Shown here: piece by piece, positions 31,075 through 57,115 of the stretch
Position numbering within the stretch: position 1 is the stretch's first letter
Layout: each line of letters starts with the position of its first letter
Assembly (NCBI GenBank): GCA_947623455.1
Contig: OX392530.1
Location: 32,519,405-32,583,404 of the forward strand
Direction: 5' to 3'
From: Mimachlamys varia
Lineage: Eukaryota > Mollusca > Bivalvia > Pectinida > Pectinidae
DNA length: 64,000 nucleotides
Notes under the pieces: generated by a model
Seen by the model: the letters and a program-made list of their open reading frames with translations, nothing else
The model's database searches: none
What the model was told of the DNA's origin: nothing
Position numbers and translations under genes: made by a program

Positions 31075-32290
31075 GGTTTGTGCCAAGGTGACCATTGGCA
31101 TACTGTGGTAACTTCTTATTGTAAAAGAAATATGACCATTATTGGCATACTGTGGTAACTTCTTATTGTAAAAGAAATATGACCATTATTGGCATACTGT
31201 GGTAACTACTTAATGTAAAAGAAAGTTGATCATTATTTGCATACTGTGGTAACTACTTATTGTAAAATAAGGTCGCAATTATTGTAATACTACAGGTTAC
31301 TATTTCGTGTTAAAGTAAAGTATCATTATTCCATTACTACAGGTAACGACCGGTACTTAGTGTGAAAGTAAGATATCATTTTTGCATTACTACATGTAAC
31401 TACGTATTATAAAAGTAAGGTGACCATTGTTGTCTTACGGTGGTAATTACTTATTGTAAAAGTAAGGTTACTGTTGTTGCCTAACTGTGGTAACTACATA
31501 GTGTAAACGTAAAGTGACCATAATTGTATTACTTCAGGTAACTTCTTATTGTAAAAGTAAGATGACCAATGTTGCCTTACTGTGGTAATTACTTATTGTA
31601 AAAGTAAGGTGCCATTGTTGCCTTAATGTGGTAATCACTTAGCGTAAAGTAAGGTGATTTTTTTGGTATTCCTACAGGTACTTATTAAGCGTAAAAGTAA
31701 GGTGACTTTTTTGTATTCCTACAGGTAACTATTTCGTGTAAAGCTAAGGTGACTATTATTGTATTTCTACAGGTAACCATTTAGTGTAAAAGTAAGGTGA
31801 CTATTATTGTATTCGTACAGGTAACTATTTCGTGTAAAAGCAAGGTGACTATTATTGTATTCCTACAGGTAACTATTTCGTGTAAAAGCAAGGTGACTAT
31901 TATTGTATTCCTACAGGTAACTATTTCGTGTAAAGGTAAGGTGACTATTATTGTATTCCTACAGGTAACTATTTCGTGTAAAAGTAAGGTGACTATTATT
32001 GTATTCCTACAGGTAACTATTTCGTGTAAAAGCAAGGTGACTATTATTGTATTCGTACAGGTAACTATTTCGTGCAAAAGCAAGGTGACTATTATTGTAT
32101 TCGTACAGGTAACTATTTCGTGTAAACGCAAGGTGACTATTATTGTATTCGTACAGGTAACTATTTCGTGTAAAAGTAAGGTGACTATTATTGTATTCGT
32201 ACAGGTAACTATTTCGTGTAAAAGCAAGTTGACTATTATTGTATGACTACAAGTAACTACTTAGCGTAAAAGTTATGTGACCATTATTGT
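31075..32290 (+). repeat. Minisatellite, 47-48-bp unit, about 25 copies
   Basis: The core from about 31730 has a 48-bp unit containing GGTGACTATTATTGTATTC and ACAGGTAACTATTTCGTGTA. The left part (31075-31260) uses a 47-bp variant with GACCATTATTGGCATACTG, and the middle is more diverged. Because 48 is a multiple of three and the unit lacks stops in one frame on each strand, frames of about 150 codons with a 16-residue period stay open on both strands (31781-32246). They are not genes. Confidence 0.9.
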
Positions 32291-34029
32291 CATACAACAT
32301 GTTTTGTTTCGTTCGATCTGAACCAGCGTTTAGCGAAACTTGATCCGTGCTCTATCTCCTCTAGGTGCTGTATTTGTGGGTGGTAATTTATGGCGATGTC
32401 AGGGATAGTTCTCAATTTAACTGTCAAAGTAGTTTTATCTGCGTAATAACCGCACCGTATAATGACACGTCTTAATTATTTTTACTGAGGTGGGAAGATG
32501 TCGCCACGTTATTACTGCCGATATTTACAATGCATGTGGTATTTATGGAAAGTATGTCAACACATGCCATGTTTGACAGAACAAGTGCACGAGACTTGTG
32601 TGACCTTCCATTTTTTGACAGGCAATAATAGCGGGGGAGGGGTTGTTCATCTTACCCGATTAGTACAGCATACACACATTAAAAATAAATTACTTGATAA
32701 ATATTTTGGAAAATGAGTATTCTGTAACATATTTTAATTTGCATAAATAGAGGTTGTCTCCCTTCGTATAATCAATTCACCTCCGCCTGCCTGTTGGGTA
32801 GTCGGTATATCATCCTTGCTCCTTTAGCAGCTACTTGCCGCGATTCTGTCTGCACCACACTGACGTATACGCACTTGACGTGGACAATAGTACGCTCAAG
32901 TGCCCGTGGATTGCACGTCCTTGACATGATATTCTCCACTTCAATATGCGGTGTATAACCACCAAGGAGTATTTATATGCCAATACTTACGGCTTGGGTT
33001 TAATCCTTATCATAAAACCTCAATAAACAACACTTCTATAATCATGTTACTCATGTTTGACCAGATATACTACTTGCATTGTTTGTTTATTTATAAAAGT
33101 GTCATATAAGACGATCAGTATAAGTTGATAACTGTGTATGATATACATAGACAATTAAGACTGATAAAGGCCATTTTATGCAGATAAGAAAACGTGAAAT
33201 AAATTGGTCAGAGCCACTCGACCGTCCAATGTTTACGGACCCCTACAACGAGCAACCTAAATCACTAACAAAGATCCTCAAGATATATTTGGCTGTTTCA
33301 GAAAAAAATCCTCTTATGAATTTTGATAGGGAGACTTTGGGTGGGTATCAGTGTGTTTTGGGCAGCGATGCAGAAACAGGTGTTTGTAAACAATGGCGAA
33401 AGAGCAAGGTGTTTGAAGATCGACAAGGACTGCTATGACAAGTGGGGCCCGACGGATCCTCCAATTATTTGGGGTTAATCACGTGACAGCGATCTATCTG
33501 CCTGGATGGACAATGGTTTTACATACCAACCTTATACGTCAAGGTCGCACGCTCACCTCGCCTCAGACTCGGGGCCTTTTGTTGGCAGACTTCTCGCTTA
33601 GTTTGTTCCCTCTCTCTTGCCACCACAGTAGATTTCCACGTTCTATACCCGGCTTCGTCATGCATAAAATGTAGATTTTATAGTTAGACCATATATGTGG
33701 TCGCGCTTTACTACGAAGGGAAGAAACGCAAGTGCGACTCAAACAGAAGGGTGAAGTTAAGTGCTAAAAAACAGGAGTTGGTTGCGACTGGATCAAGGCA
33801 GCTTCAAATAAAAATAAGTTCATTATACTGTATATGGATATGGTGGCTTTTTGTAAAGCATGTGTCTACGTCCCTATCAATGAAACGATATCATTAATGT
33901 TTTAACCAAGCTTAGTTAAACAGTTAAGGCTAATGTGTCTGCACTAAAACGAAGTCTTTAGCCGAGGTATGTTTTAAAACCTATTGAAGTATTCATAGTT
34001 GCGTTGGTCCGACATGTAGTTTCCTAGAT
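32291..34029. other. No confident gene; one 86-codon frame
   Basis: The plus frame 33178-33438 is unbroken and has mixed composition (S-E-K-N-P-L-M-N-F-D-R-E-T-L-G-G-Y) but no recognisable domain, and it overlaps no repeat. It could be an exon fragment or chance. Confidence 0.3.
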
Positions 34030-37000
34030 TGATTTCAGTTTCTGTGGTTCCAAGTTTATTGTCCGTGATAATGTTGGTTTAGTTTCCATGGTATAATGTT
34101 TACTTTCTGTCTTAATCTGTCAGGTTTTCTTGCTATAGTGTTAAGATTCCGTGGTACGAAGTTCAGTTTTCGTAGAAAGTTTCTAGTACCTAGGTAGCGT
34201 GTTGAGTTTCCGTAGTGTTATGTTAAGTACCTTTGTTATGATGTTAATGTTCTTGATATGATTATTAGTTTCTGTGTTTTAGTGTTTAGAATATTTAATA
34301 TGGCGTTAATGTTCTTGAAATGGTTTTTAGTTTCCTTTGTATAATGTTCAGTTTCTGTCATATGGAGTTGTAATTAGTTTTTTTGTACAGTGTGATGTTA
34401 AAATGGTACGATGTTTAGTTGCTTAACTACCAAGGTACCATTTTTAGGTTTTCGTTACATTGTTTTTCTTTTCTTTGGTAACATGTTAATATTCCGGGGT
34501 ATTGTTTAGATTCCATGGTACCGCTTAATTTCCTTAGTACAGTGTTTGGTTTCCGTGGCATTGTTTAGATTAGTTGGAACAGTGTTTGGTTTCCGTGGTA
34601 TTGTTTAGATTCTTTGGAAAAGTGTTTGGTTTCCGTGGTATTGTTTAGGTTCTTTGGAACAGTGTTTGGTTTCCGTGGTATTGTTTAGGTTCTTTGGAAC
34701 AGTGTTTGGTTTCCGTGGTATTGTTTAGATTATTTGGAACAGTGTTTGGTTTCCGTTGTATTGTTTAGATTCTTTGGAACAGTGTTTGGTTTCCGTGGTA
34801 TTGTTTAGATTCTTTGGAACAGTGTTTGGTTTCCGTGGTATTGTTTAGATTCTGTGGAACAGTGTTTGGTTTCCGTAGTATTGTTTAGATTCTTTGGAAC
34901 AGTGTTTGGTTTCCGTGGTATTGTTAAGATTCTTTGGAACAGTGTTTGGTTTCCGTGGTATTGTTTAGATTATTTGGAACAGTGTTTGGTTTCCGTTGTA
35001 TTGTTTAGATTATTTGGAACAGTGTTTGGTTTCCGTTGTATTGTTTAGATTATTTGGAACAGTGTTTGGTTTCCGTTGTATTATTTAGATTCTTTGGAAC
35101 AGTGTTTGGTTTCCATGGTATTATTTAGATTCTTTGGAACAGTGTTTGGTTTCCGTGGTATTGTTTAGATTATGTGGAACAGTGTTTGGTTTCCGTAGTA
35201 TTGTTTAGATTCTTTGGAACAGTGTTTGGTTTCCGTGGTATTGTTAAGATTCTTTGGAACAGTGTTTGGTTTCCGTTGTATTGTTTAGATTATTTGGAAC
35301 AGTGTTTGGTTTCCGTGGTATTGTTTAGATTCTTTGGAACAGTGTTTGGTTTCCGTGGTATTGTTTAGATTAGTTGGAACAGTGTTTGGTTTCCGTGGTA
35401 TTGTTTAGATTCTTTGGAAAAGTGTTTGGTTTCCGTGGTATTGTTTAGGTTCTTTGGAACAGTGTTTGGTTTCCGTAGTATTGTTTAGATTAGTTGGAAC
35501 AGTGTTTGGTTTCCGTGGTATTGTTTAGATTCTTTGGAACAGTGTTTGGTTTCCGTGGTATTGTTTAGATTCTGTGGAACAGTGTTTGGTTTCCGTAGTA
35601 TTGTTTAGATTCTTTGGAACAGTGTTTGGTTTCCGTGGTATTGTTAAGATTCTTTGGAACAGTGTTTGGTTTCCGTGGTATTATTTAGATTATTTGGAAC
35701 AGTGTTTGGTTTCCGTTGTATTATTTAGATTATTTGGAACAGTGTTTGGTTTCCGTGGTATTGTTTAGATTCTTTGGAACAGTGTTTGGTTTCCGTGGTA
35801 TTGTTTAGATTCTGTGGAACAGTGTTTGGTTTCCGTAGTATTGTTTAGATTCTTTGGAACAGTGTTTGGTTTCCGTGGTATTGTTAAGATTCTTTGGAAC
35901 AGTGTTTGGTTTCCGTTGTATTATTTAGATTATTTGGAACAGTGTTTGGTTTCTGTTGTATTGTTTAGATTATTTGGAACAGTGTTTGGTTTCCGTTGTA
36001 TTGTTTAGATTATTTGGAACAGTGTTTGGTTTCCATGGTATTATTTAGATTATTTGGAACAGTGTTTGATTTCCGTTGTATTGTTTAGATTCTTTGGAAC
36101 AGTGTTTGGTTTCCGTTGTATTGTTTAGATTCTTTGGAACAGTGTTTGGTTTCCGTGGTATTGTTTAGATTCTTTAGAACAGTGTTTGGTTTCCGTGGTA
36201 TTGTTAAGATTCTTTGGAACAGTGTTTGGTTTCCGTGGTATTGTTTAGATTCTTTAGAACAGTGTTTGGTTTCCGTGGTATTGTTAAGATTCTTTAGAAC
36301 AGTGTTTGGTTTCCGTGGTATTGTTAAGATTCTTTGGAACAGTGTTTGGTTTCCGTGGTCTTGTTTAGATTCTTTGGAACAGTGTTTGGTTTCCGTGGTA
36401 TTGTTTAGATTCTTTGGAACAGTGTTTGGTTTCCGTGGTATTGTTTAGATTATTTGGAACAGTGTTTGGTTTCCGTGGTATTGTTTAGATTCTTTGGAAC
36501 AGTGTTTGGTTTCCGTTGTATTGTTTAGATTATTTGGAACAGTGTTTGGTTTCCGTGGTATTGTTTAGATTAGTTGGAACAGTGTTTGGTTTCCGTGGTA
36601 TTGTTTAGATTCTTTGGAACAGTGTTTGGTTTCCGTGGTATTGTTTAGATTCTTTGGAACAGTGTTTGGTTTCCGTGGTATTGTTTAGATTATTTGGAAC
36701 AGTGTTTGGTTTCCGTGGTATTGTTTAGATTATTTGGAACAGTGTTTGGTTTCCGTGGTATTGTTTAGATTCTTTGGAACAGTGTTTGGTTTCCGTGGTA
36801 TTGTTTAGATTCTTTGGAACAGTGTTTGGTTTCCGTGGTATTGTTTAGATTCTTTGGAACAGTGTTTGGTTTCCGTGGTATTGTTAAGATTATTTGGAAC
36901 AGTGTTTGGTTTCCGTGGTATTGTTTAGATTATTTGGAACAGTGTTTGGTTTCCGTGGTATTGTTTAGATTCTTTGGAACAGTGTTTGGTTTCCGTGGTA

Positions 37001-37275
37001 TTGTTTAGATTCTTTGGAACAGTGTTTGGTTTCCGTTGTATTGTTTAGATTATTTAGAACAGTGTTTGGTTTCCGTGGTATTGTTTAGATTCTTCGGAAC
37101 AGTGTTTAGTGTTCGTGGTATTGTTAATTTTCCTTGGTACCGTGTTGATATTACGTGGTATTGTTTATATTTTATGGTACTATGTTAAGTTAATTTGGTA
37201 TTGTTTATTATCTTGGTACCATTTTTAGTTTCCGTGATATTGTTTAGATTCCGTGGTAATGTTTAGTTTCCGTGG
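34030..37275 (+). repeat. Minisatellite, 40-bp unit, about 64 homogeneous copies plus degenerate flanks
   Basis: From about 34545 to 37110 a 40-bp unit containing GGAACAGTGTTTGGTTTCCG and TATTGTTTAGATTCTTT repeats with few point variants. The flanks (34030-34545 and 37110-37275) hold the same words, GTTTAGTTTCCGTGGTA-like, with irregular spacing and much divergence, so the array was homogenised from the centre. Larger blocks are duplicated within the core. Every third unit reopens a 64-codon frame; these frames are artefacts. Confidence 0.95.
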
Positions 37276-40200
37276 TATAGTATGATGGTACAATCGTATA
37301 TATGTAAACATATGTACACGAGGTTATGCTTAGCTAGCTCAAGTATTTCATGCTAGCATGTTTTATAGACTAGTACTCGGTGAATATCTTTCTCTGTCAG
37401 TCGTGTGTGGAATCTTCAAAGGTTTCTTCTCATCATGCTACAATCTACTGCTCGTAAACGGAAAGCGAGGACGGATGTAAATATCATTATTATTATTTTA
37501 TCTCGAAAACTGAATGGAATGAAACTTAATGAACTGCGGAAATTGTGGAAAATATGCGTACAAACAAGCAATGTTTTACAACGTGATTTCTGTATTGTAA
37601 GGTATCTAACTTTGTAAGCCTTACTGAGATATGCTGTTTAGTTATCTAGGATAAAAGGATGGACTCGAGACCCCTTTCTACTGCTGAAGTAAGTGTCTGA
37701 AGTGTGGGACAAGTACGGGAAAGTGGATGGCGATCTTCGCCCCGTCCTGTAAAGTGATGTTGACAAGTCATCACTGCATCTGATTCAGATCAAACAACCA
37801 ACACAAAGCCCTTAAATGGGACTGTTACCAAACACATTCTCAAAAGGTCAATCAGTAAGTACGTCTCTAATCCCCATGAGAAGACGCAGTAACCCGGTGG
37901 TTACATAAAACCAAGCGTTCACAGTTTCCTTTTAAGGAAACACCGTCTGACATCATAACATGGAGACTACATATTTAGTTGATTTGTTTTCGATTTTGTC
38001 GACGAGAATGATATAAATATCTTCCAATGATCAGTCGAGAGCCATGTAAACTCATCCGACTCTTCTCGTCCCTATCTTTTAGTACAACAACGTCGACATT
38101 TTCATCAAAATTCAGACAAGTTCTGTCAAGCTTGCCCATTTGTTCCGTGTCCCTCTTTCGAGTAAGCATATACATTTCACGTCGCCGTTCTCATCGAAAC
38201 TCTCGTCTGTTCGGGTAAAAGTACACTTCAGTTCTTGCCTTATACATCATATCCTCAGCTGATGGAGTACCGATACCTATCGACGGCAAGACACATAGGT
38301 ATCTATTTAGACACATATTGCATTTTTAATCTTTAAAATGGGCCAGCCTGGAACATAAAGCTTTCTATGGGGGAATATCAATGGTTTTTTTTCACGCTGT
38401 GGGCATCTTGTATGGAGATGATTAAAACCGAAAACAGTTTATGTATATTTAAATGAACGATGGAATGGCAGATAAGTCCTTGTACATTATGCCAATTATA
38501 GATAGTGAAGCAATTTATGCGGAACGCTTACATCATTGCAAAATTGATTATACCAAACCATCCTGATTCCATAAAAGTAGCGACAATCAGCCGATGGAAG
38601 TCGTCGATACGACAAACGTGAATGAAAACAAGACATATCACCAGCCCTTTAATAAATTCGGACATAACCAAGCAATCGAATCATCTCATTTCTTGTTTAA
38701 CTGATGAAATCTATTCAGAAAAACATTTTCCATTATTAATATATTTTACACCGCTTAAACGACACTGTTGTAAATAAATTTCGTTATCGACTAGACTTGG
38801 TGCTTGTTTATGATCATGACTATGTAGTTATATCATGAAACTGATGTTCGTTGCACGTGAATCATATTTACTGATATGGATGTTATTTTCGGAAAATAAA
38901 TTGTCAACATGATATGAAAATGTGATAAGATCATTTTCTTTATAGGTATTTTTGTCCGAAGGATGGTCTTTTGTGGAATCCTAGCATATATTATAATTTG
39001 TTTTGCAAGTCGTTTGTGATGTAAGGGAGTTCCTCTGTCAGAGTGGTTTGTTGACCGTTACAGTTCTTTTGGTATATTTTGTTTACTGTGACGTTTGTTG
39101 TTTATTGTTTTCATTTTGTTGATGCAGTTAAGTGTGGAAGTGTTTTATACTCCTAAGTTTCTGTTCACAAGCTTCCTTGATCATTAGATCATGGTTCGGA
39201 CGAACTGTTTGCTGTATTCATGTCCTGCTGACGGCCAGATCCATTTTAACACTGCAGCGTTTTACATCCCAGATTAATTTGTCTAGAACATTTTCTGTAT
39301 GTGAATGATTTCTCTATTGACATCCGAAAGAGTAGGCAAGATTTACCAGAGTGAACAAAGTAAAATTATTTCATCGTTTATAATGAAAAAGGTACATATC
39401 GCTGGTGACTTGTTGCCATGGAAACCTTTTATATTTCTATTAAAAAATATATCTTAAGAATGCCGGGAACTGCTGAGTTCTTCTAAGACAACGAACATAT
39501 AAATGCATTGGCCTTTGCATGACTTATCAAAAATGTGATAATCCGAATCGATAAAAACAATTGAAGTTATTCATAATAACTGCAATTGAGGATTGTAATG
39601 GTATTATTTCAAAGAACTTATTGAACTTTAGATTGAAATTATTCTACTCTACTCTCTATTATGAAATGGTTGCCGGGTTTTTCTTTCGCCGACCTCGTCA
39701 TCTATTGTTTATTTGGACAAACGATATTACGCTGGCTGCTGAAAGTCGGTAAAGGAGCCGACTGATTATAAAGCGCTTCTGATGAAGTTATTGATATGAA
39801 GTATTGATAAATCAGTTCCTTCAAAACTTTAACCGTAAATTAATTGACCACAAGAATCTCAAGGCGCAGTCTAGTATTACAACTACAAATCTAACGTCAA
39901 AACGATCGTTCATGCACCGATGACAAATTGTATTTCTGTAACATGAACAAAGTCATTATATTTCCATTTTACTATCGAAAAGGAACTTTAAATTACTTAC
40001 GCTGTGTGTACACTTTGGTGGCAATGAGACAATATACGCCATTTAGGCATTAACCATTAATGGGTTACTAATAAAAGCTTATCAATACTTCGGTGAATGT
40101 ATCGAAGAAGGAATGCCAAATTACCATAACTCTTCAGAACAGGAAGTTTTTTTTTCAGTTAAATAACTTCGTGTACATGTTATCTAAGAAAGTCTAGTGT

Positions 40201-41137
40201 CATTTTGCTTATCATATCAACTTCCTGTAGCTAAACCCTAAAATATCTCAGCCAAATATTTCAGTTTAAAACTTAACAAATGCTTTTTGTTCAAGTTTTT
40301 CTCATAATTAACCGTGAAATTCGTTGATTAGACCGCTGTGCGTTGCCCCGAATCGCCTTTGGACTTTGACCTCACCCTGTAATACTCGGGAATTATCATT
40401 CTGCTCTGAACACAAATTAAAAACACTGAGACATACATTTTTTCAGTGTTTTTTATATTATATTTTATGTTTTGTAGAAATTTTACAATAATTTAAATAG
40501 TCATAACAAATACCACTTTCATAACGATAACACAACTCCCATCCAAACAGACGCATACATACAATGAACAACATTCTACCATACGCCACGCATCAGCATG
40601 CACGTGCTGCTGCAAGCCCGAAATGTTCTACTCACTATGGCAAATATCAACTACAATGGTTCGTAAAGCCATTTGTGTCGTCTCGTCAGTCTCCAGTGGT
40701 CCTTAACCTTCCTTAAATGACTGTAGCGTTAAAACTGAAAAGTTTTGGAAAAACCGTGTTGTCTTTCCGCGTTGGATTGTGTATCTGTCCTTAGCGTGCT
40801 TTATAGTGTATACCGGACGAATAACTCGTCCAGACGTACACACAATACGGACAGTAGGGTCCGTTTCTGAACACATAAATCTACCTTGGTACTGCTAGCA
40901 CGAAATGCCTGTGGATTTCTGGAAGACATTGTCTCCCGCGCACACTTGTCATGCTTTTTGCTTGAATGTCCGCCGCCACGGAGCAGTCTGTGTTACAGGG
41001 AATGTTGTCAGTACTGGCAGTAACTCATCCAATAACAACAATAAATGCAGTATAATAATATTCATAATTAATAATATATCACAACACATAAGCACGGGTC
41101 GGTGTCTTTAAATCATTGCACGCATCCTTATCACGAC
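37276..41137. other. AT-rich DNA downstream of the ligand gene, no gene seen
   Basis: Frames are at most 70 codons. No repeats were recognised. The right-hand part may include the ligand gene's 3' UTR. Confidence 0.45.
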
Positions 41138-41172
41138 ACCGCCCGTGCACAAGTCCTGTCTTGACGGGCGGT
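41138..41172 (-). other. GC-rich hairpin downstream of the ligand stop codon
   Basis: ACCGCCCGT at 41138-41146 pairs perfectly with ACGGGCGGT at 41164-41172, leaving a 17-base loop. It lies about 275 bases downstream of the ligand stop, so it may fall in the 3' UTR. No AATAAA was seen on the minus strand between the stop and this point, so the UTR end is unknown. Its GC content contrasts with the AT-rich surroundings. A regulatory role is inference only. Confidence 0.4.
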
Positions 41173-41446
41173 CTATATTTACTGGCTACACAACGTGGTC
41201 CCCTCCCCCCAACCCCGGCCCCCACTGGATTTCATAACATACGTAATAAATATACGAACTCTGGGTAGTACACACAGGTCGCAGAGTTAGCCAGGCCTGT
41301 TCTTAGTAGCAACAGGTGGAATGGAACTTCCTTCGAGAGAAGTATCTCTTTTAAAAGTAATCCATTGGGTTGCGGCACCATTGTATCACAGTTGGCGCAT
41401 GCGCACGAACACGTCACTGTCACGGAAAATCCTTAGTTTATAAATA

Positions 41447-42364
41447 TCACACGTCCCTCGGCCGTCTTCGTCGGTTTTTCCGCTTACGTTTGTTTTTTGG
41501 ATTGCCACACTCACACCAAACGTTAACATGAAGTTTCTCGAACACCCAAACCTCCTCGTATGTCGTGTTGAGCCCCACTGTGGGGACAGGGTTACATCGG
41601 TTAGGGTCCATCTTAAACAAGTTGATTGTGTACCCCTGCTCAACGCATTCGTTTAACTTATAATAACACAATTTTGTTAAACATTCCACGGAATTATAAT
41701 ACTTTGGAAAGTACCCTGGTTTAGTTTTATTCCATTTCTTTTTCATCTTACACTTCCATGACAAGTGGTCCTTTCTTTTAAGTTTCTGTTTTTGTTTTCG
41801 CCTCCTTCCACTACGACCCGCTCGCTTATGTCTTACATTTAATTGCATTAATCTTTGGTAAAATGTCACATCCACGTCGAAATCATCATCGTCCTCGTCC
41901 TCTTCTTCCTCTATTACCGCTCGTCGTTTTCTCCTCTTCATGAATTTCATAGAATCTAAAAACGCAGATTCCTGCGTTCGAACCGTTCTGTCTTGTGAGT
42001 TTCCGTAACCACCATCACTCATCATTGTGTTCGAAAGCGAATCAATATTCGAGTCGAAATCATCCAGCGAATCACCGAATTCATCATCGTCGTCGTTTTC
42101 GAAATCATCGTCGTCCTCGATAGAACGCTCTCGTAACGTGCTCCTTTTCATGTCCTCCTCGTCCATTGCCATCCTTGACTCGTCGTAGTGTTTGCCCATA
42201 CGGTAACGCAGATGTTCTGGATCGACGGGACGACAACGAGGCACGGTAATTTCCGTGATGTTATTCAGCTTGGTTGGCGGGCGTTTTCTCGGGTAGGCCA
42301 ACACGGGGCTTGTCAACATCACAAAACAAATCAAGAGCAACAGAAACTCGCTGGTTCTCTTTGC
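41447..42364 (-). CDS. Trunk/PTTH/Noggin-like secreted cystine-knot ligand, 3' coding exon
   Basis: This exon encodes a secreted growth-factor precursor. Residues are numbered from the in-frame ATG at 42400, which is probably intronic. Residues 13-35 form a signal peptide with a hydrophobic LLLLICFVML core and cleavage after VLA. Noggin/Trunk-like features follow: a C56 segment, then G69-K-H-Y-D ending in M-A at 77-79. Two acidic stretches (94-118, 163-178) flank a KRRKRR site at 155-160. A furin-type RHKR site at 190-193 would release the mature domain. That domain has W215 and cysteines 217, 240, 245, 252, 269, 296 and 298, with FPKYYNSVEC and EEVWVFEKLHVNVWCEC. Trunk and Noggin share the F/W-P-R/K-Y...C...C spacing and the terminal C-x-C. 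The E-x-W-V-x-E...V-N...C-x-C ending looks closer to Trunk, a Torso-receptor ligand in insects. Sequons lie at N47, N224 and N278. The tail after residue 300 is highly basic. Stop TGA is at 41447-41449. The assignment within the superfamily is by eye. Confidence 0.8.
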   Translation of the reverse strand, partial: AKRTSEFLLLLICFVMLTSPVLAYPRKRPPTKLNNITEITVPRCRPVDPEHLRYRMGKHYDESRMAMDEEDMKRSTLRERSIEDDDDFENDDDDEFGDSLDDFDSNIDSLSNTMMSDGGYGNSQDRTVRTQESAFLDSMKFMKRRKRRAVIEEEEDEDDDDFDVDVTFYQRLMQLNVRHKRAGRSGRRRKQKQKLKRKDHLSWKCKMKKKWNKTKPGYFPKYYNSVECLTKLCYYKLNECVEQGYTINLFKMDPNRCNPVPTVGLNTTYEEVWVFEKLHVNVWCECGNPKNKRKRKNRRRRPRDV

Positions 42365-42397
42365 CTGCAACAACAAACAGGAGAGAAAACATTTAGT
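42365..42397 (-). other. Splice acceptor of the ligand exon (branch point, polypyrimidine tract, CAG)
   Basis: On the minus strand TGACTAAA (a good branch-point match) is followed by a tract rich in T and C and then TTGTTGTTGCAG, directly before the GCA codon at 42364. Branch A to AG is about 28 bases, a normal distance. The intron joins in phase 0. An ATG at 42400 keeps the frame open through this tract, so a single-exon start there is possible. It would put MTKCFLSCLLLQ ahead of a signal peptide that already looks complete, so I prefer an upstream first exon. Confidence 0.65.
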
Positions 42398-42400
42398 CAT

Positions 42401-44944
42401 CGCAGAGCATTGGAAATGTGATAGTTTGAAATAAAATCAGAAATAGTTAAATCGATTGCAAGATCATAGATATTGGTTTCTTGATTGGGACACCAATGGG
42501 TGTGTTCGTCATTGTGGAGTAGTAAGAACGACACGCCTGTTTGGATAGTATTTTGTATTAGCTAATCTCGATATCTAATCATTGTACATGCTCGCCATTA
42601 TAGCATTAGTTTTCCTGCCTACGACTCGGCCATAATGGGGTGACAATTGAGCCAATTCTACCCGTTAAAAACACGACGTATTTACTAGATTAACACTATA
42701 ATGTATCTTGATGACAACCACAAACCAAAGCCTTCATTTTCGAATTGTTCCAATGACCATGTACCAATGGAAATAAGTACCAATTGTCAACATTAAGGAC
42801 CAATCACACACCTGAAAGAGGTACTAGTTAAATGTGTATTAAAACCGTGTTACACTATCACTAGAAGTAAATAGCTGGGTAGACCCGCATCATTACATTC
42901 ACAATTTTTCAAATTCAATAGGTTAGGGCAATTCAAAATCTTTGTTGTACATCACATATGATTTTTACAAAAAAAAAGCAATATTTTCAAAATGAAAATG
43001 TTACTTAACTCAATCACTTTTATCGAGTGTATTCCTTGTATACGCGTATGTGTAAGGAAAATGTCATCGTCTAAATCTATAGACACCTAATTTAATATTA
43101 CACGGATTTACAATATGTACGTTTCAGTTAAAAGCATATCTCAAATGAATACGATTAGCGTCACATTTAACAAACCTAACCAATCCCTAACTATGGCAAA
43201 AATGTTGCGTCAGTACATGATATAATATGTGCAATTATTCGTCACAAGGATGTGTCAAATGTAAAAATATCGCTAAAATGTCTGGTGTTTTTTATCTATC
43301 TGCTTATCACTATTATCGTCAAATACTTTTAGTATGATGCAAACTGCATACAGATGTGAGATAATGTCACTTATATCCGCGTGTTCCTGATCATGATTCT
43401 TTACCCAAATAATGATGAAAATGTGTGAAAATTCAGGACGTCGACATGATTTAAAACTAACACCCACATACAAAAAATGTATGTAGAAATTTAGAAATTG
43501 TCTGTGCATATACACATGTGTAATTTATGAAAGCCAAATAGGTGAACACAAGAGTAGATATATGTAATGATATATAAACACGTTTTAAAAGTGACGTATC
43601 ATGACCATTCCAAAGGCATGTGTATGAAAAAAAAATACCTGAACGAAAATGTTCCCAAGTGTTGTATGTTAAAAACATGACTCGATAATTTTTGGTGTCT
43701 AAGCCAAGTTGAGATGTACATGTTCCCTCAATAAATATATTGTTTGATTGACAGAATTCACACAAAGGTTAATGATATATGTCAGTATTATCACTATTAG
43801 AAATTGTCTCATATAATTCAGGTACTATTGTAAAGACTTTCGAGATTATTTTGCACAAACCGAAATACATTGTCTAACGTCATAGAGTGTTCCTAGTGGT
43901 CAAGACAGGAGATATATCGTATGGAATATGGATAGAAATGTTACTATCTAAACGTAAACGGTTCGAGGACTTCCAAATCTAATAAATCTATATTATTTAA
44001 CTTAAAAGCAATAACTGAGCGTAAAAACTTGTACAAAATAAAAGAAAACTAATTAATATAGCACAGAATTCGAAAAATATAAAATGTAGGAGAATGTGAA
44101 TTTTTTATGTAAGTGCCAGGGTACCGTCGGGTGGTTATAGCGGTTCCACACTAGTCGATGTTGACAAACCTTTAACATGCGGAATTCAATAGCTCGGTAA
44201 ATATGCAATCTATGACAGGTAAGACTCAGGTTTTAATTGATGTATACGCGTTGTTATTTATATTTTACATCTCGCTATTGGCTATTTTAGATGTGATTTG
44301 ATAGACACTAGTTACAGGAAATTCCAACACCATAACCACGACACCTTGAACTATACTGCCATCCACATTCCCAAGTAGTGGCGACAAGGACTGACACAAC
44401 CCGGTGGAGTGCAATGGGAGGAGATTTTATAAATCGCAATAACTCAACAATACGCCACTCGCTATTCAGTGTAAGCCCTCCTTGGAAAGCCTACTCGAAT
44501 ATATCCTAGTCCCTCTCAAGATTAAAGACATGCCTCTCTAGGTAGCGTCACTTCTAGTGCGTCCCGACTCCCCGGGAAACAGGTACAATCGCTTAACCTA
44601 GTGCCCACAAATAAGCATGAATCTCAGGAAACTGCTAATAGTTTTAACTCAGCGTTAAAAGAACGCATATTTAGGCATTGCTTATAAGTATTTCCTGGTC
44701 CAAAGGAAACTGGAACACTGCCTGTCTCCGCATTCCGAGGACTCGTGTTTAGGTAGAATTCACTAGCATGGGTGAGCACGGGAAACTCGTTCGCGTCCCA
44801 ATTTCTCACGCATTCCCACTTTCATCATCACGTTTAACCGGACGTTTGGACCGGAATATGATAAGGTTATTCATCATTCCACTAGAGAATATACACATGT
44901 AGAACGCAGTTCGATAACAGCAGATGCAGCAGCCGTAAGGTTCA
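42401..44944. other. Probable intron or upstream sequence of the ligand gene
   Basis: If the acceptor at 42365 is used, this is intronic. It is AT-rich, with frames up to 102 codons on minus (43457-43765) that show no motif. A GC-richer part lies at 44300-44830. Confidence 0.4.
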
Positions 44945-45860
44945 ATGACGTCGGTTACAGAACATAACCTATCCAAACTAGAATATACCGTCAGTTACAG
45001 AACATAACCTATCCAAACTAGTATATACCGTCAGTTACAGAACATTACCTATCCAAACTAGTATATACCGTCGGTTACAGAACATAACCTATCCAAACTA
45101 GTATATACCGTCAGTTACAGAACATAACCTATCCAAACTAGTATATACCGTCAGTTACAGAACATAACCTATCCAAACTAGTATATACCGTCGGTTACAG
45201 GACATAACCTAACCAAGCTAGTATATACCGTCGGTTACAGAACATAACCTAACCAAGCTAGTATATACCGGCATCTACGTCAGTTAAAGAATATAGCCTA
45301 ACCAAGCTAGTATATACCGTCAGTTATAGAAAATAACCTAACCAAGCTAGTATATACCGTCAGGTATAGAACATAACTTAACCAAGCTAGTATATACCGT
45401 CAGTTATAGGACATAACCTTACCAAGCTAGTATATACCGGCATCTACGTCAGTTATAGAACATAGCCTAACCAAGCTAGTATATACCGTCAGTTACAGGA
45501 CATAACCTAACCAAGCTAGTATATACCGGCATCTACGTCAGTTATAGAACATAGCCTAACCAAGCTAGTATATACCGTCAGTTATAGAAAATAACCTAAC
45601 CAAGCTAGTATCTATCATCAGTTACAGAACATAACCTAACCAAGCTAGTATATACCGTCAGTTACAGAACTTAACCTAACCAAGCTAGTATATACCGTCA
45701 GTTACAGAACTTAAACTAACACAGCTAGTATATACCGTCAGTTACAGAACTTAACCTAACCAAGCTAGTATATACCGTCAGTTACAGAACTTAACCTAAC
45801 CAAGCTAGTATATATCGTCAGTTACAGAACATAAACTAACCAAGCTAGTATGTACCGGCA
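44945..45860 (+). repeat. Minisatellite, 40-bp unit with 49-bp variants, 22 copies
   Basis: The unit contains CAGTTACAGAACATAACCTA and AAGCTAGTATATACCGTC. The first six copies have CTATCCAAACTAG and the rest CTAACCAAGCTAG, so the array has two sub-families with a sharp border near 45200. Three units (near 45269, 45439 and 45527) carry an extra GGCATCTAC. It begins about 2.6 kb upstream of the ligand exon and may lie in that gene's intron. Confidence 0.95.
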
Positions 45861-47309
45861 TTGTCATAACAGTAAATGACGTCATCAACAAAACACAATC
45901 AATGAAACCAAAGGAAAATATCGTCATACACTTCAGTTTGGTTTTTTTTTTCTAAAAAGAATGTAATTTGCGTTGACCTTGTTACGTTTGATCGATATCT
46001 AAATCAATATTTTAACCACAATTATACCAAAACATGTTTTGGGACGTTTATATTCACTGGTTAATAGCTGGTAGTAAATTATATATAGTTCCTCACAACG
46101 TTAAAATTGGGTGAAATATGTTTTTGATGATAAGAACAATTGTACCGTTTAGTGGACATATAAAGAAAATGTAAAATATTACCAAAGTTGAGTTTCTGTT
46201 AACTGTCCTGTAAATCCCATGTATGTCCATTCGTCCAGTTCAAACTTAACATTGACATTGTTTCTTACTACTGCTCGCACGAGACTGTCCCGTTATATGT
46301 CGAGATTCCCAAACACGCTGTCTATTTATCTCACGATTTCTCTGCGGTCTGAAGTACTTTAAAATACGCCCCCTAATCTGTCGTAACTTTGTGTAATATT
46401 AAAATAAGTATGCGTCATCACGTCAAAAAGAAGGTTTCCCCCAACATACTTGAAATTCTCGGTTAAAGACAAGATGTCAATACAATCCCAAATATAGCCT
46501 GGAGTGTTTGTAGTGACTTCGCTAAAAAAAGCTTCCGAAAACCAACCAACAACTCTGATAAAAGGTTTTATTTAAATTTGGGTGTTGGCCGTTTCAATTA
46601 AAGCGATATATTTGTAATGTACTCCACGTTTTTGAATGTACGGAATGCTATTTTCTATTTCACCGTTATACATGTGACTTATAATCCGCATGTCAAATTT
46701 CATCAGCTTTTTAAATATCAGAACAGTGTGGACTGCCATGTGATACGGTCACATTGGCGTACCTTTATAACACCTGGATTAACCTATGAATCAGTTAAAA
46801 ACGTTCTGAAAGATTACAGACGGGTGGAATTACACACAGTCTGACAAACACAGTTTGCGTGAAAAATCCCTGTGTTTTGAGAATAATTCAGACGTATCAG
46901 AAACACATGCATCATTATTGGTCCGTTGTTCTACCGAGGTGAGATTTTGAATCATAAGTGTTGGTTTTATCGACAAAACAGTATCTGATTTCCCAGTGTA
47001 CAGGGGCATTAACACCCTTTGTGACCAATAATAGCGGAATGTATTGGAGATCAAATGTTAAATATCATCTCAAATACCCCATCATCATCACAGACCTAAG
47101 AGTGTGCACTGGCTGTACACAGCAAAGGAAAACTGTAGGCAAACAATGAAGGCCATACGGAACATAGCAAACCGCAAACCTCAAACAGTCGGTTGTGCAA
47201 ACTGGCATTAATGATACTATTTATATTGTGCCCATCGTTCACAATGCAATACAGAGACAATCGGCATTGAAAATACAAAAGCATACATACCACCATACTG
47301 AAACCGACG
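45861..47309. other. No gene seen, possible intron
   Basis: Short frames, no recognised repeats. Confidence 0.4.
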
Positions 47310-47645
47310 GCAGTATATCAATTATACCATAAAAACTAACAATACTGAAACACGGAATAACTTACCAATTATACTATAAAAACTAACAATACTGAAATAC
47401 TGGGTAATCTACCAAACATACCATAAAACCTAAAAATACTGAAACACGGGGTAATCTACCAATTATACCATAAAAACTAACAATACTGAAACACTGGATA
47501 ATCTACCAAACATACCATACGAAACACTGGGTAATTTGCAAAATTGACCTTACAACTAACAATGCTTACAAACTGCACATTTTACCAAATATACCATTCC
47601 TCTTATAATACTAAAACACTCGAATTTGTCAAATATACCTTCAAT
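47310..47645 (+). repeat. Degenerate minisatellite, ~47-bp unit, about 7 copies
   Basis: Words ACCATAAAAACTAACAATAC, TGAAACACTGGGTAATCTAC and CAAATATACC recur at roughly 47 bp with deletions (one unit lacks the first word near 47515). It fades out to the right. No function suggested. Confidence 0.8.
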
Positions 47646-50600
47646 TTACAATAAGATAACACTCCGCAATGTACCATTTTTTTCTTTTATCGTACACAAG
47701 AGAAAGGCGAGATTATGCTTTTTGTGCGAACTTGTTTGCAAATTTTGGGTATGTTCATCTAAAAAGCTTACCGGACACGGTGAAATGTTCAGGACTTTGG
47801 TCAGATGTAGTGTCACTGTGTCTCAACTTATTTCGGTACTTTTTAAGAGAGAAACATCCTTTATGATGACAGGTTAAAGATACATTTTGTAAGGGTTAAT
47901 TTAATCCTGGGAGTTCTTACACTTGGTCAAACCTCTCGAGTATAATTTTTTCTTACATCCCCGGTCATGAAAGAGTTATACGCTATTTTTTTCAGATAGC
48001 TTTTGATTACTACCGTCGAGTGATTTTTCATGATGTAATGAATAATTCAAATGAAATTATCTTAATTCATATTTGAAAATTAATGAAAATAACATTTTAA
48101 AGTTGAAAAACAATGGTTCCAAAAGTCATATATCGCAACGTGCTTAACAGGAGATAACAAACAAACATCATGAGAACAAAATTGAGACAAGTATCGTTCC
48201 TGAAAGGGGATGTTTCTTTAAATTGCGTTATAGCTAACTTCATCAGTATCAATGTAAAAAATGCCTGCATTTGAAACACAAAAGAAAAATGTACTCGTGA
48301 CCCCTAAGGTATCTTTGTGTTTTGTGCCTTGTTTGTAAAAGTATTAACGGATCATCATCATAATCTGGTCTTTAAGGGGTCACACAGCAGTAAACAAGGG
48401 GTCACACGAGTAAACAAGTAGGCGGTAGGTAACAAAGAGGAATGATGGGGCAAACTGTCACAGAAAAACAAGACAGAAAAGTCCTAAGCATTTTGATGAA
48501 TTTGCAAAACGCTGGACAAACATACACTCTCTGCAGTGATTGGCTAAGAAGGTAACCGGGTACTCGTGGAAGTAAGAGTGTGTTTATTAATATTTACACC
48601 TCTCCTGACTTAACGAATCAAATCGTTCCTTCTGATTCAGCAGCAGGGTACTCCAGTGTATTTGTAATGTCCCTTAATATCTTATTGTGTGATCGACAGT
48701 AATAAAGTAATTTCATATAATATATCGAAGTCTGCAGAAATTATCATAAATTTCTGCAACCAAAACTGATACCATACACACATCTCTGCAATAAACCACC
48801 ATACATCCAGCTGTATATTCACCAACTACATCAATTTTCACCGCTCATTCATATGTATGCTCTTCACTAAGATATCGAAAGTATACAAACGCACATTCAC
48901 TTATTTACAGTGTTGTCATCCAACAGTTCAAACCCAACAGAGATATATGTGCCCTCTGAAATGGACACATCATGGATCAAATGTCCATCAATGGATCAGA
49001 AATGATAACTCCAAAATACTTCTAGTCTACAGTAAACTCAAAACGGTCCATCACAGCAACATAACAAAGGGTTGATACGTATCAAACACTGAATGGAGGA
49101 CAGCGTGCAGTGTCTATGAATCAATGAAGGTATCCTAGCCTGGGTATGATGGACAGGTTTATACAGAAAGTGCAAAACATATGTTCCAAATAACGGCACA
49201 GAGGGTAAAAACGACGGGAATACAAACCAAAAAATATGGAAAGTTAGAAATCTCCCAAAGTGTCCCACGAGGACAGAATATCATCAGAAGTCCCTTTGTT
49301 ACACCAAATACAGTGAGTATGGTGGGTACAATCATAAAACATCCCCAAGTTAACAAGTTCAAAAGCATAAGTAAATTGTATTCAACACAAACCTCTTTTA
49401 AAAACCTCGTAAATAGACTACTCTCTTAAGTTCCCTAAAAATTCCTAGACAGAAGGAAATCATTAAACTTAACTTAAATTTTAGGAAAGCAGAACTAAAG
49501 TTAGTTTAAGCGTCGTATATGTTTTCCTTACACCCCTTTAATTCTTATCTTTGAAGAAGAAATCAAACTCAGAAATAAATACTAGTTCAAAGCTAATATC
49601 TTTGAAACTTATAGGGAGAACGCAGTGCATCAACTTTAAATGTCTCGCCTACCAGTAAACAAATAAATGTCCCCGTGAGATTTGCGTGATCATCAATATG
49701 ATCACCGAGGAGGAATTTAGCAATTTCATTCTGAATTACTTCATTTTGGTAAAGAAACGGGTACAACTTGAGGATAACATTTGCATTGATGGTCAATCGG
49801 TATAACTGGTCACTCGTCACGTGACCTTAGCTTTTATAGATGATCGTGAACCTAATCAGTCAAACTGTTGTCGTCTGCCAGATTAACAAAACATGTGCTG
49901 ACGTTACCCTCGTGATCGGATCAACAACCTAACGATTTGATAAAGTTTGTCAATGAACAAACGAAATCATGGAATACCCCGAACGTGAAATTTAGACCAG
50001 GAAAAAATCGTACATGTCACCAGAACATAGCAGCAACGATATTTAAACGTATTTGGCAATTTGTAAAGTGTAAATCATTATGTACTTGCATTTACCAATG
50101 TTTGCATAGGTTTGTCAAATCCGAATCCTTTTTGAAAATCATTTTTTGCTTGTTTTTGTAGAAATTGTAAAGAGGAGCGCAATACATGAACACAAAACTA
50201 TCTCTTCAAAGTCAACATACAAGGACAGAATATACCACAGTATTACACACATTAATTAAAATATACCACACCGTCAACAGGTGAGGTCAAAAGAAGCCAA
50301 AGAAACTGATATGCTACCAATTTAAGGCAGAACAACATCAACGTTCATAATGAACGAAAACGAGAGCAATGGTTCAGTAAATGATAAGTATAAGCTACGT
50401 CACGTGGACATCTTCATGTTAAATTGCAAGCCCAGTATAATATTCAGTTTGTAGGGTACGACATGGTCTTTAAAAGCATTGCTTACATCTTAGAAAAGAG
50501 TTTAATATACGGGGCTAGTAAGATATTTATCGAACCTTCGACAAACCAAGGAGTACGCAAGCTGTCATTCGTTATTGTTCTTTAGTAGAACATATATTGT

Positions 50601-53600
50601 TCGTCGTAGTGGAGTATACGTACCTGTGTCACAATCAAAGGAGAAAACATTTCACGACCATTGGAACGGTAACAAGGACTTCTCACAACTGTGTTGGGTA
50701 GCAGTCTATTGGAAATCATATCAGGTAGGGCCCGGGTGTTGGCTCGCCGGTCTCACCCACGGGACGCTCGGCCATCACCCCCGGGATACACAGCTTCCCT
50801 AGCTCGTAATAAATCCAAAAAAATAATTCCCAAAATCTGGTTATTTATCACCGAATTATTATAACAGATATAATCCCGAATATGTTGGGAGTCACATCTA
50901 GGCGTATGTTTCGTTCCTCCGTTCGGAAGACCACGGGACACCGTGGTTATCGCTCATTTACATAGGTTGTACACTTTGGCAATCCTCGGGTCACAATAAT
51001 GATCCAACACTGAACTATAACTTCCATTCCATTTCAGAATTAATCCCTTTCTAGTGGCACAGCCTTGAACGTCCGTGAGGTTCCGTCTACGCCACCCACG
51101 CACGTTCTACAGGACAGTCGTAAATTCGATGTCATACACGTGCAGTGTACTTGATCATATCTGGAAAATATCAAATAGAAAATTCATGAAAAAATGATAA
51201 AAAGAGAATATGTAAATACAAAATAATGTTTATATTGAAAATGTTTTCAATGTATTTTATTTTCTTTGTAGAAAGACATTAGCTTTGATTCAAAACCAGC
51301 CTTATAAAGCTTTCAGGCAACCCATCATAAGTTTGAAACCAATTTACGATTAGTGGAAAATAATTCCTGAAAAAGCAATAATTAAGTAAATAATCCAGGT
51401 ACTTTGTTAAAGATCTATGGCCAAAGAAGGTCCACCGAGTCCATGACCAAGAGGTACCAAGATGTATATATCTGTATAGGATTTGACCAAATTCCCAGAG
51501 TAGACAGATCTGACCACATCAGGGAGGGAGAAAACCCACATACATAGCGTCCTGTGACTCATAAAGCTTATATAGGAGTGAAACAGTTCATCAGCATATC
51601 ACGAAAAATCGATGTTCATAATCAGCTGTCCACACCTCGTGGCCACGGCCCACGGTTTCCTACTGGTCCGCCCCTCCAGTCAACCCGGTCTCCTTGGCCA
51701 CTGTCTAACTTCAATATCAACTTTTTTCCTGCCTGGGCATAAAAGTCTTTTTAAAAGAAAAACATATGTTGTGATAAAGCAACATATGGTTAGTCAAACG
51801 CCAACTCACAGTGTCTAGAAAAATTCGCGCGTTTTTTGGTAGGTGTGTTATTGTTGCGCAAGTCGGTTGTAAGTTGTAACCTGTTTCGATGTTAACAGAC
51901 CTCCGTAGAAATACACTTGTGGGGCACATTCTATAACATGCTATTTGGATGGGAAATCATGCGTGAACTGAATACCAATTCAACATTCCTTTACCGTACA
52001 TGCATGCATTATCATTCTTTATTTCATATTTAGATTTTTATGCGCTTACATTTCTTGATTATTTATTCTATATAGAGCGTACGTGGAAAATATGTCCTCC
52101 CTATTTTTTAGAATTCAAATAATGCCATTATTAGTATTTAACGTGTGATTAATGCACGCGTGTTAATGTACGTTTACCATGTATAGTCACAGACTCCTAG
52201 CACATGGTCGGGCCTTTCCGCGTTCTGTCGCGATAACGCAAAGCGAGACACATAGTTTAAGGTAACTTAACAGTTTTAATTAAAGGGGACAGAGACCACA
52301 GGTAACCTGTAACAGGTGTATGAGAGAGATCAGCGTACCAGTCCAGGTGACAATGAACAGAGGGAGGGGGTACTCTAAGTCACCTCATGTAACACATACC
52401 TAAGCCTGATGACGTACGATCTGAAAATAATTCAAGTACTCGTCATCGTCTAAAACACCAAACTTTGGTTTCTAACGAAAGTTTCAATTCTTTTTTTTTA
52501 TATTCTCTGGCTGTGTTAGCACAGTGTCTTGGTTCGTCCCTCCACAATGGGAGTAAACACGGCCGTAAAGCGGCCTATAGAACGCTGTGCTAATTACTTA
52601 AACTATGCTGCTTAACACACAATCATATTCTATTCTGAATAAATATTGAAGTTTGATTAAACATGGACTTTTTCATTCCACAATGCTTCACTTAAAGAAC
52701 GTGTGGTATGAAAAATGGGCGTTGAAGTTTTAAAAGTGAAATTCATCTGACTTGCAATTCGTCACGGCCATGGCGACTATAAATAGTAAATACTTGTGCA
52801 TTTCTTTGAATACCGCCAACATCTGATACATAAGGCAACAATATTTAAACAGCGAAAAGGAATTTCCCAATTTCCTAAAATTATATATATCGATAATATG
52901 GCTTAAAAGAATTCCACAAAGCTTGTTTGGAGCTTCCTTTTTGGACAGTAGCAAACAAAATGTAGCATAGTGATAAATCAGAATATTGCATTAAATCGGC
53001 TATGATTTACCTGTAAGGTAAGTTCACTCTACCTGGCAGACTGTGTAGATTACATGTACATCGATCGGATTAATGTATATATATACAATACCCACATAAC
53101 ACATAGCTGCTTACCAGTCGGTTTCTCCATAACACGTGTACACTATACAATGTACCCCTTGAAACGATGGCCACTCTATCAGTTATATTTGTCAATTATC
53201 TTCACATTTGAGCCCAATAACCTATAAGCGATAGGAGAGAATACAGATATAAGATCTGATGATAACCCAACTGTATCCCGCTCCTCAATAAACAATGCTC
53301 GGCCAATTTGTGGGGGGACTTTACGACGGTGATTCACTAGTTCCGGGATTGTGTATCCGACTCCGTCCCGGGTTTGGACAGTCCATCACCGACTGGTGAG
53401 TAATACAGAGAAATCAATGGCGGGTCGGACCGGGCATTGCAGGGAGGGGGGAATGACCACACGCCGATTGGACAAATGGAGGGTCTCTCGTTCATCGGAG
53501 GTCAAGGGATAAGATGAATCAAGGGGAAAGTGTCCAATGTCCGCTATATATCGAACGTCAACTAAACAAATAGACGTCTGGTCAATTTTCTTAAGACGAA

Positions 53601-55689: not shown

Positions 55690-57115
55690 CGTCTCACTGT
55701 TAGAACAAACTGAATACTTTCAATATTGAAACAGTGCTACACTGAATATTCTCTAAACCAATACGGTAATAAAGTGAATACAATACACTCTAAACCGATA
55801 AAGTATTACATTAAATACTCTCTAAACCTATACAGTACTACACATAATACTCTGTTAACCGATACAGTACCACACTGAATAATCTGTAAACCGGTAAAGT
55901 ATTACACTAAATACTCTCTAAACCTATAAGTACTACACATAATACTCTGTTAACCGATACAGTACCACACTAAATAATCTGTAAACCGGTTAAGTATTAC
56001 ACTAAATACTCTCTAAACCTATAAGTACTACACATAATACTCTGTTAACCGATACAGTACCACACTGAATAATCTGTAAACCGGTAAAGTATTACACTAA
56101 ATACTCTCTAAACCTATAAGTACTACACATAATACTCTGTTAACCGATACAGTACCACACTGAATAATCTGTAAACCGGTAAAGTATTACACTAAATACT
56201 CTCTAAACCTATAAGTACTACACATAATACTCTGTTAACCGATACAGTACCACACTGAATAATCTGTAAACCGGTAAAGTATTACACTAAATACTCTCTA
56301 AACCTATAAGTACTACACATAATACTCTGTTAACCGATACAGTACCACACTAAATAATCTGTAAACCGGTTAAGTATTACACTAAATACTCTCTAAACCT
56401 ATAAGTACTACACATAATACTCTGTTAACCGATACAGTACCACACTGAATAATCTGTAAACCGGTAAAGTATTACACTAAATACTCTCTAAACCTATAAG
56501 TACTACACATAATACTCTGTTAACCGATACAGTACCACACTGAATAATCTGTAAACCGGTAAAGTATTACACTAAATACTCTCTAAACCTATAAGTACTA
56601 CACATAATACTCTGTTAACCGATACAGTACCACACTGAAATATCTCTAAGCAGAAACACCACAACACTTAATACTCTCCGATACATTTTTAAACAGAATA
56701 CTCTCTAAACTGATGCACCACGATACTACATACTCTCTAAACTGATACATTTCTACACTGGATACTCTCTAAACCGGTACATTACTACATGTACACTGGA
56801 AACGCTCTAAACTTATACACCACCGCACTATACGTAATCTCTAGACTGAAATGCTACCACACTGAATATTGAATGCTTCCTTAACTGAAAGAGTTTCACT
56901 CTGATTAATTAAAATTTAATACACAACAAAATTTAATAGTTTTTAAATAGACACAACAGCATATTGAATACCCTCTAAACTGATACACTAGCAGAACGAA
57001 TACTCCCTAAACTGGTACATTACCTAATGAATAGGTTCAAAACTGACAACCAGGATACTTAATGCTCTCTCAAATGACATCATTCCATTTCGGATAATCT
57101 TGAAATTGACAAAGT
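55690..57115 (+). repeat. Minisatellite with 95-bp higher-order unit (three ~32-bp subunits)
   Basis: Between 55871 and about 56640 a 95-bp unit repeats about eight times in exact register (starts 55871, 55966, 56061, 56156 and so on). Each contains three diverged 32-bp subunits: GTAAACCGGTAAAGTATTAC, CTCTAAACCTATAAGTACTA and CTGTTAACCGATACAGTACC. Left (55690-55870) and right (56640-57115) flanks hold the same ~32-bp words singly and diverged. The 95-bp copies are nearly identical, which points to recent amplification. Confidence 0.95.

Follow-up and report, generated by a model that had tools for sequence, protein, structure and literature searches.

The window analysed here, a stretch of 64,000 nucleotides of the Mimachlamys varia genome (contig OX392530.1, positions 32,519,405 to 32,583,404), contains a two-exon gene on its minus strand. 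This gene is very probably a scallop Trunk. It would encode a secreted precursor, and the cystine knot at the C-terminal end would pair into a dimer that serves as the ligand of a Torso-type receptor. Both the knot and a block of the prodomain (C44–M67) are homologous to those of Trunk. Residue 1 is the residue with which exon 2 (305 amino acids, aa) begins; 32 is to be added for the 337-aa form. Trunk has been reported from molluscs before, and the gene extends that record by one scallop genome. The preliminary description considered Torso-type signalling to be poorly described outside insects, which disagrees with the available text of three papers publishing Trunk from many non-insect groups (PMC6660194, PMC6425005, and PMC8398477). 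These report Trunk in molluscs, annelids, brachiopods, anthozoans, a ctenophore, and others (PMC6660194), in molluscs generally (PMC6425005), and four Cragi-PTTH precursors in the oyster (PMC8398477). The one point that specialists might find fresh is the N-terminal arm shared with Noggin.

Relationship of the knot to Trunk, PTTH, and IL-17

Taken singly, the window protein has diverged too far to be matched in PDB or Pfam. When a family profile was searched against PDB, the leading match was Bombyx PTTH (E = 7.7e-4), with Noggin in third place (E = 0.26), and no IL-17 chain appeared up to E 10. A profile of insect-type Trunks (13 rows) matched the window protein with 61.9 bits (E = 7.2e-16), while the best of 10,000 shuffles reached 12.2 bits. 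A two-sequence Noggin profile gave 6.6 bits, under its best shuffle (12.9). The 13 Trunk rows comprise five proteins named "protein trunk", two "Spaetzle domain-containing" proteins (Anopheles), one unnamed beetle protein, and five sequences with neither name nor taxon. "Insect-type" is our label: an insect taxon is recorded for eight of the 13 rows, the other five carry no taxon, and the 14-row set mentioned below also includes P0037, which is without taxon.

Two sequence searches yielded 10 and then 22 relatives of the window protein; those named by organism are all bivalves. The nearest named proteins are those of Mizuhopecten yessoensis (92% identity), Ylistrum (82%), and Pecten (82%), and the names among the relatives include one "protein trunk-like" and one "Protein trunk". 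The seven knot cysteines are present in all 22 relatives, and three have an eighth cysteine. The mature region of the window protein contains seven cysteines, and its knot was located as follows.

41507..41758, minus strand: cystine-knot domain W203–C286, with C205, C228, C233, C240, C257, C284, and C286
41594..41596, minus strand: C257, the seventh cysteine, invariant in 35 of 35 rows (molluscan family and insect-type Trunk), with no counterpart in Bombyx PTTH

The motifs claimed in the preliminary description (GKHYDESRMA, W-K-C, YFPKYY, C-x4-C-x6-C, EVWVFE...VN, and the terminal C-E-C) were all found on the minus strand. Its placement of the protein in the Trunk/PTTH/Noggin superfamily was supported, as was its view of the EVWVFE...VN ending as Trunk-like. 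Structure prediction gave a cystine-knot fold for the protein. A better match to Spaetzle or BMP, which the preliminary description named as counter-evidence, did not turn up: the Pfam matches listed up to E 10 include neither Spaetzle nor BMP/TGF-beta, although HMMER filters remove most weak matches from such a list.

The genome searched is the 975-Mb assembly holding the window. It contains two short Trunk/PTTH-type paralogs, at C6:30240480-30240839 (L002/L010) and C16:18645855-18646148 (L011), which connect the gene stepwise to PTTH; the prodomain block is absent from the exon read in both. A four-row query alignment composed of C16, C6, and the knots of two long-family relatives retrieved mosquito proteins named "protein trunk" from a database of 5.8 billion sequences (E = 1.5e-20 to 3e-18). 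Profile–profile comparison of the knot (hhalign) gave E values of 8.5e-27 for the short molluscan-type genes, 6.6e-26 for Trunk, 1.3e-5 for IL-17 (a profile of 13 of the scallop's own loci), and 8.4e-4 for Noggin, whose two-sequence profile is at a disadvantage.

In the knot tree with Noggin as the outgroup, the window family, insect-type Trunk, and PTTH group together with a support of 96/95. PTTH forms a very long branch; in the tree without it, the support drops to 84/89, a result that still admits alternative arrangements. The tree leaves undecided whether the window family or the short molluscan paralogs are nearer to insect-type Trunk. Orthology with PTTH itself is unsupported by the cysteine pattern, which has W-K-C only and no additional cysteine preceding the knot.

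In predicted fold, the knot is comparable to IL-17. When the mature domain was searched by fold, IL-17A and IL-17F came first, and they also head the Foldseek results for the full model, where PTTH is ninth; relatives show IL17 Pfam matches below the cut-off (up to 23.6 bits vs 24), and the C6 paralog exceeds it (27.1 bits). Nevertheless, it is very improbable that the protein is a cytokine of the IL-17 type, signalling through IL-17 receptors and resembling Trunk only superficially. The relation to IL-17 is far weaker in sequence, as seen in the hhalign values and the PDB matches; the window protein has no match to PF06083 (IL17) listed up to E 10, and the genome IL17 scan, whose 34 places are a lower bound, does not include exon 2. 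Membership of IL-17 is rejected on sequence, while the fold comparison is undecided.

The scallop's own IL-17 family is large, with at least 34 places at E up to 1, many of them clustered, mainly on C6, C10, and C16. One of these places is the C6 Trunk paralog. The C16 paralog exceeds the Noggin Pfam cut-off (25.5 bits). Since C6 passes the IL17 threshold and C16 that of Noggin, Pfam labels cross over in this superfamily.

The prodomain is long and acidic, and the mature part is rich in K/R at both ends. This would suit a Trunk relative without a ligand role, for example, one bound to the matrix via its very basic tails. However, the knots of Ylistrum and the window protein are identical over the compared stretch and the seven cysteines are retained in every relative, and we regard this explanation as the least probable of those considered.

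The prodomain block and the candidate cleavage sites

Upstream of the knot, the following features of the Trunk precursor can be noted.

42296..42352, minus strand: hydrophobic stretch of a putative signal peptide (SEFLLLLICFVMLTSPVLA), read by eye, ending in VLA-Y
42164..42235, minus strand: prodomain block C44–M67 (CRPVDPEHLRYRMGKHYDESRMAM), common to insect-type Trunk and weaker in the N-terminal arm of Noggin
42143..42148, minus strand: dibasic site K73–R74 (KRST) after the block, candidate counterpart of K75–R76 (KRSS) of Drosophila Trunk
41921..41935, minus strand: RRKRR, basic cleavage candidate, read from the sequence; relatives have similar sites
41822..41833, minus strand: RHKR (RHKR181), furin-type site preceding the mature region, read from the sequence

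The block was assessed with an ungapped BLOSUM62 column score based on the molluscan block columns (18 rows), with 2000 shuffles per protein. This score was picked after runs with standard hidden Markov models (HMMs) of the short block, which are too insensitive and mostly missed it. In each of the 14 insect-type Trunks, the highest score fell on the block; it was equalled by none of the shuffles in 11 of them, by one in two, and by four in one. In the scallop's own two Noggins, 12 and 17 of 2000 shuffles were as good, and six short Trunk/PTTH-type proteins scored at chance level (386–1415). The C-x12-G spacing is found in 13 of the 14 insect-type blocks and is shorter by one in P0037. The match of the window protein to the insect-type HMM covers residues 139–287 only; the matches of P0011, P0018–P0021, and P0030 extend into the block. 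A full-length profile–profile alignment also supports it. Given the weakness of the short-block HMMs, the claim rests on the column score, this alignment, the matches of some relatives, and the predicted structure. Invariant columns of the 35-row alignment include L52, M65, C205, C228, C233, C240, C257, C284, and C286. The presence of the block in Trunks and the invariance of C257 make both of them Trunk features.

The block had previously been described as Noggin-like, and a precursor mixing Trunk and Noggin had been proposed. The resemblance to Noggin stands, but a Noggin feature grafted onto Trunk does not, the resemblance being stronger in insect-type Trunks. A hybrid precursor is ruled out because insect-type Trunks bear the same block; the precursor is of the normal Trunk type.

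Counting the window protein, 17 of 23 family rows have a KR pair 8 residues past the block, and 18 of 23 have one within 40 residues. Insect-type rows have KR 16–27 residues past the block in 13 of 14 cases, and neither of the scallop's own Noggins has KR within 40 residues following it. A candidate dibasic furin-type site is present between the N-terminal part and the knot; among the relatives, RHKR is found in P0001–P0005 only. The available text on Drosophila Trunk describes intracellular furin cleavage, for which K75–R76 (KRSS) is critical (PMC4640135). Judging from position, this may be the same site as K73–R74.

In superposition, the predicted full-length structure fits Noggin best. PTTH is not among the 50 superposition rows listed, which is not counted as evidence against PTTH. 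A Noggin-like protein would bind and block BMPs extracellularly, and the N-terminal block would belong to the arm that contacts them. Such a function is unlikely here. The PF05806 score is 14.3 bits, against a cut-off of 24.1; the N-terminal region preceding the block in the scallop's own Noggins (RPxPSDD...), which we take to be the clip, aligns to gaps; and the window protein ends in C-E-C-G, without C-x-C-x-C. Furthermore, the knot is far nearer to Trunk in the profile–profile comparison (with the two-sequence Noggin profile), dibasic sites lie between the block and the knot, and the genome already has two clear Noggin genes. The latter are located at C1:44477127-44477729 (L003) and C1:44437169-44437825 (L004), with some 40 kb between them. 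Both are uninterrupted open frames, scoring 234 and 147 bits, respectively; the second has a knot insertion and a divergent arm.

As a Trunk, the secreted precursor would undergo furin-type cleavage past the block and before the knot. The freed basic cystine-knot ligand would form a dimer and switch on a Torso-type receptor tyrosine kinase and Ras/MAPK. The block C44–M67 may be an inherited helical arm, packed on the knot in the precursor like the corresponding Noggin segment, and a cut at K73–R74 and/or RHKR181 would detach it. Secretion, the cleavage site used, dimer formation, the receptor, and the tissue role are all presumed in this scheme. Torso has been reported in lophotrochozoans (PMC6660194, available text), and the accessible part of PMC6303783 states that formal proof of Trunk–Torso binding was still missing as of 2018. 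According to the available text of PMC8398477, oyster Cragi-PTTH1/2 are expressed in the visceral ganglia only, whereas expression of PTTH3/4 extends to most tissues of the adult.

Tentatively, the Trunk "prodomain" may be the same structural element as the N-terminal arm of Noggin, lying against the knot in both. Gain or loss of the cleavage site would then separate a BMP trap, in which the arm is kept, from a receptor ligand, in which it is cut off, and molluscan Trunks, retaining arm, site, and knot, would record the split. We consider this possible but doubtful; many IL-17 rows of the superposition begin at the same model residues, which makes it slightly less likely. A relation between Noggin and Trunk via a multifunctional ancestor has already been proposed (PMC9071555, available text). 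In the literature surveyed, where the motif itself was not searched for, no paper was noticed that describes this block as common to both families. The block provides a second region of likely homology beyond the short, fast-changing knot and bears on whether Trunk, PTTH, and Noggin have a common ancestor. Its sequence suggests that a segment presumed to be removed and lost during processing was inherited, and that the BMP blocker Noggin has it too. The block also suggests cleavage between arm and knot as a concrete mechanism by which one protein could give rise to both a ligand for a receptor and an antagonist of BMPs, testable in ordinary cell assays.

Gene structure and surroundings

The coding part of the gene extends across approximately 9.3 kb, and the joined exons give a 337-aa frame.

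50624..50719, minus strand: exon 1, first coding exon (MISNRLLPNTVVRSPCYRSNGREMFSPLIVTQ), donor CAG/GTACGT, phase 0
42365..50623, minus strand: intron between exons 1 and 2, approximately 8.3 kb, placed from the splice sites
41447..42364, minus strand: exon 2, last coding exon, 305 aa and stop, phase-0 acceptor TTGTTGTTGCAG/GCA, with relatives aligned

Exon 1 is 74% identical to the N-terminus of Ylistrum P0002 over 34 residues (tblastn, E = 6e-13). We infer the splice from the consensus donor, the good acceptor, and the matching phase. The start at 42364 given in the preliminary description is indeed the exon start, at this acceptor; the frame also has an ATG at 42400, upstream of the acceptor. 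The open frame containing exon 2 has 317 aa from the first ATG and 329 aa from stop to stop, and the longest stop-free runs in 20 mononucleotide shuffles of the window were 108–149 codons; the frame is conserved at the protein level. More than one Met is a candidate for the start. Isoforms X2 of P0001 (Mizuhopecten) and P0003 (Pecten) have N-termini unlike the conserved first exon; comparison of these alternative starts with the window gave no clear match.

Long tandem arrays occupy 31094-32295, 34539-37278, 44949-45857, 55791-56639, and 57126-61802, with units of 48, 40, 40, 95, and 28 bases, respectively, in up to 167 copies. Two of the five have a strong strand skew, and the array at 44949-45857 is within the intron of the Trunk gene. 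A hairpin candidate at 41120-41200 was rejected, folding no better than shuffles (z = −0.58), and an Rfam scan of the window at gathering scores gave zero matches.

Comparison with known systems

The scallop protein shares with insect Trunk the prodomain block C-x12-G-x2-[FY]-[DN]-x3-M (spacing in 13 of 14), the subsequent KR, the W-x-C knot, and Cys257. Unlike insect Trunk, it has a long acidic prodomain and a basic C-terminal tail; its KR lies 8 residues past the block instead of 16–27, and its ending is WCEC instead of CCDC or similar. P0018, P0019, and P0022 end in C-C-E-C, comparable to C-C-D-C of insect-type Trunk. As scallops have W-C-E-C instead of C-C-E-C, their Cys257 is without that possible partner.

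A Trunk/PTTH-type precursor with an additional peptide and dibasic sites is also described for oyster Cragi-PTTH3/4 and bivalve "trunk-like" proteins in the available text of PMC8398477. The Crassostrea relative P0011, 50% identical to Pinctada P0007, is presumably Cragi-PTTH3 or 4. Bombyx PTTH (PDB 5aoq) is the best PDB sequence match, and its six knot cysteines align. PTTH has an additional cysteine ahead of the knot (P-C-T-C) and lacks Cys257, whereas the scallop protein shows the reverse. The additional cysteine of Bombyx PTTH, Cys15, is interchain.

To IL-17, the scallop protein is similar in its predicted cystine-knot fold, the sequence relation being far weaker than that to Trunk. With Noggin (PDB 1m4u and 7ag0), it shares the predicted knot and, more weakly, the N-terminal block; unlike Noggin, it has no clip region and no C-x-C-x-C end, its Pfam score is below the cut-off, and it possesses dibasic sites between the block and the knot.
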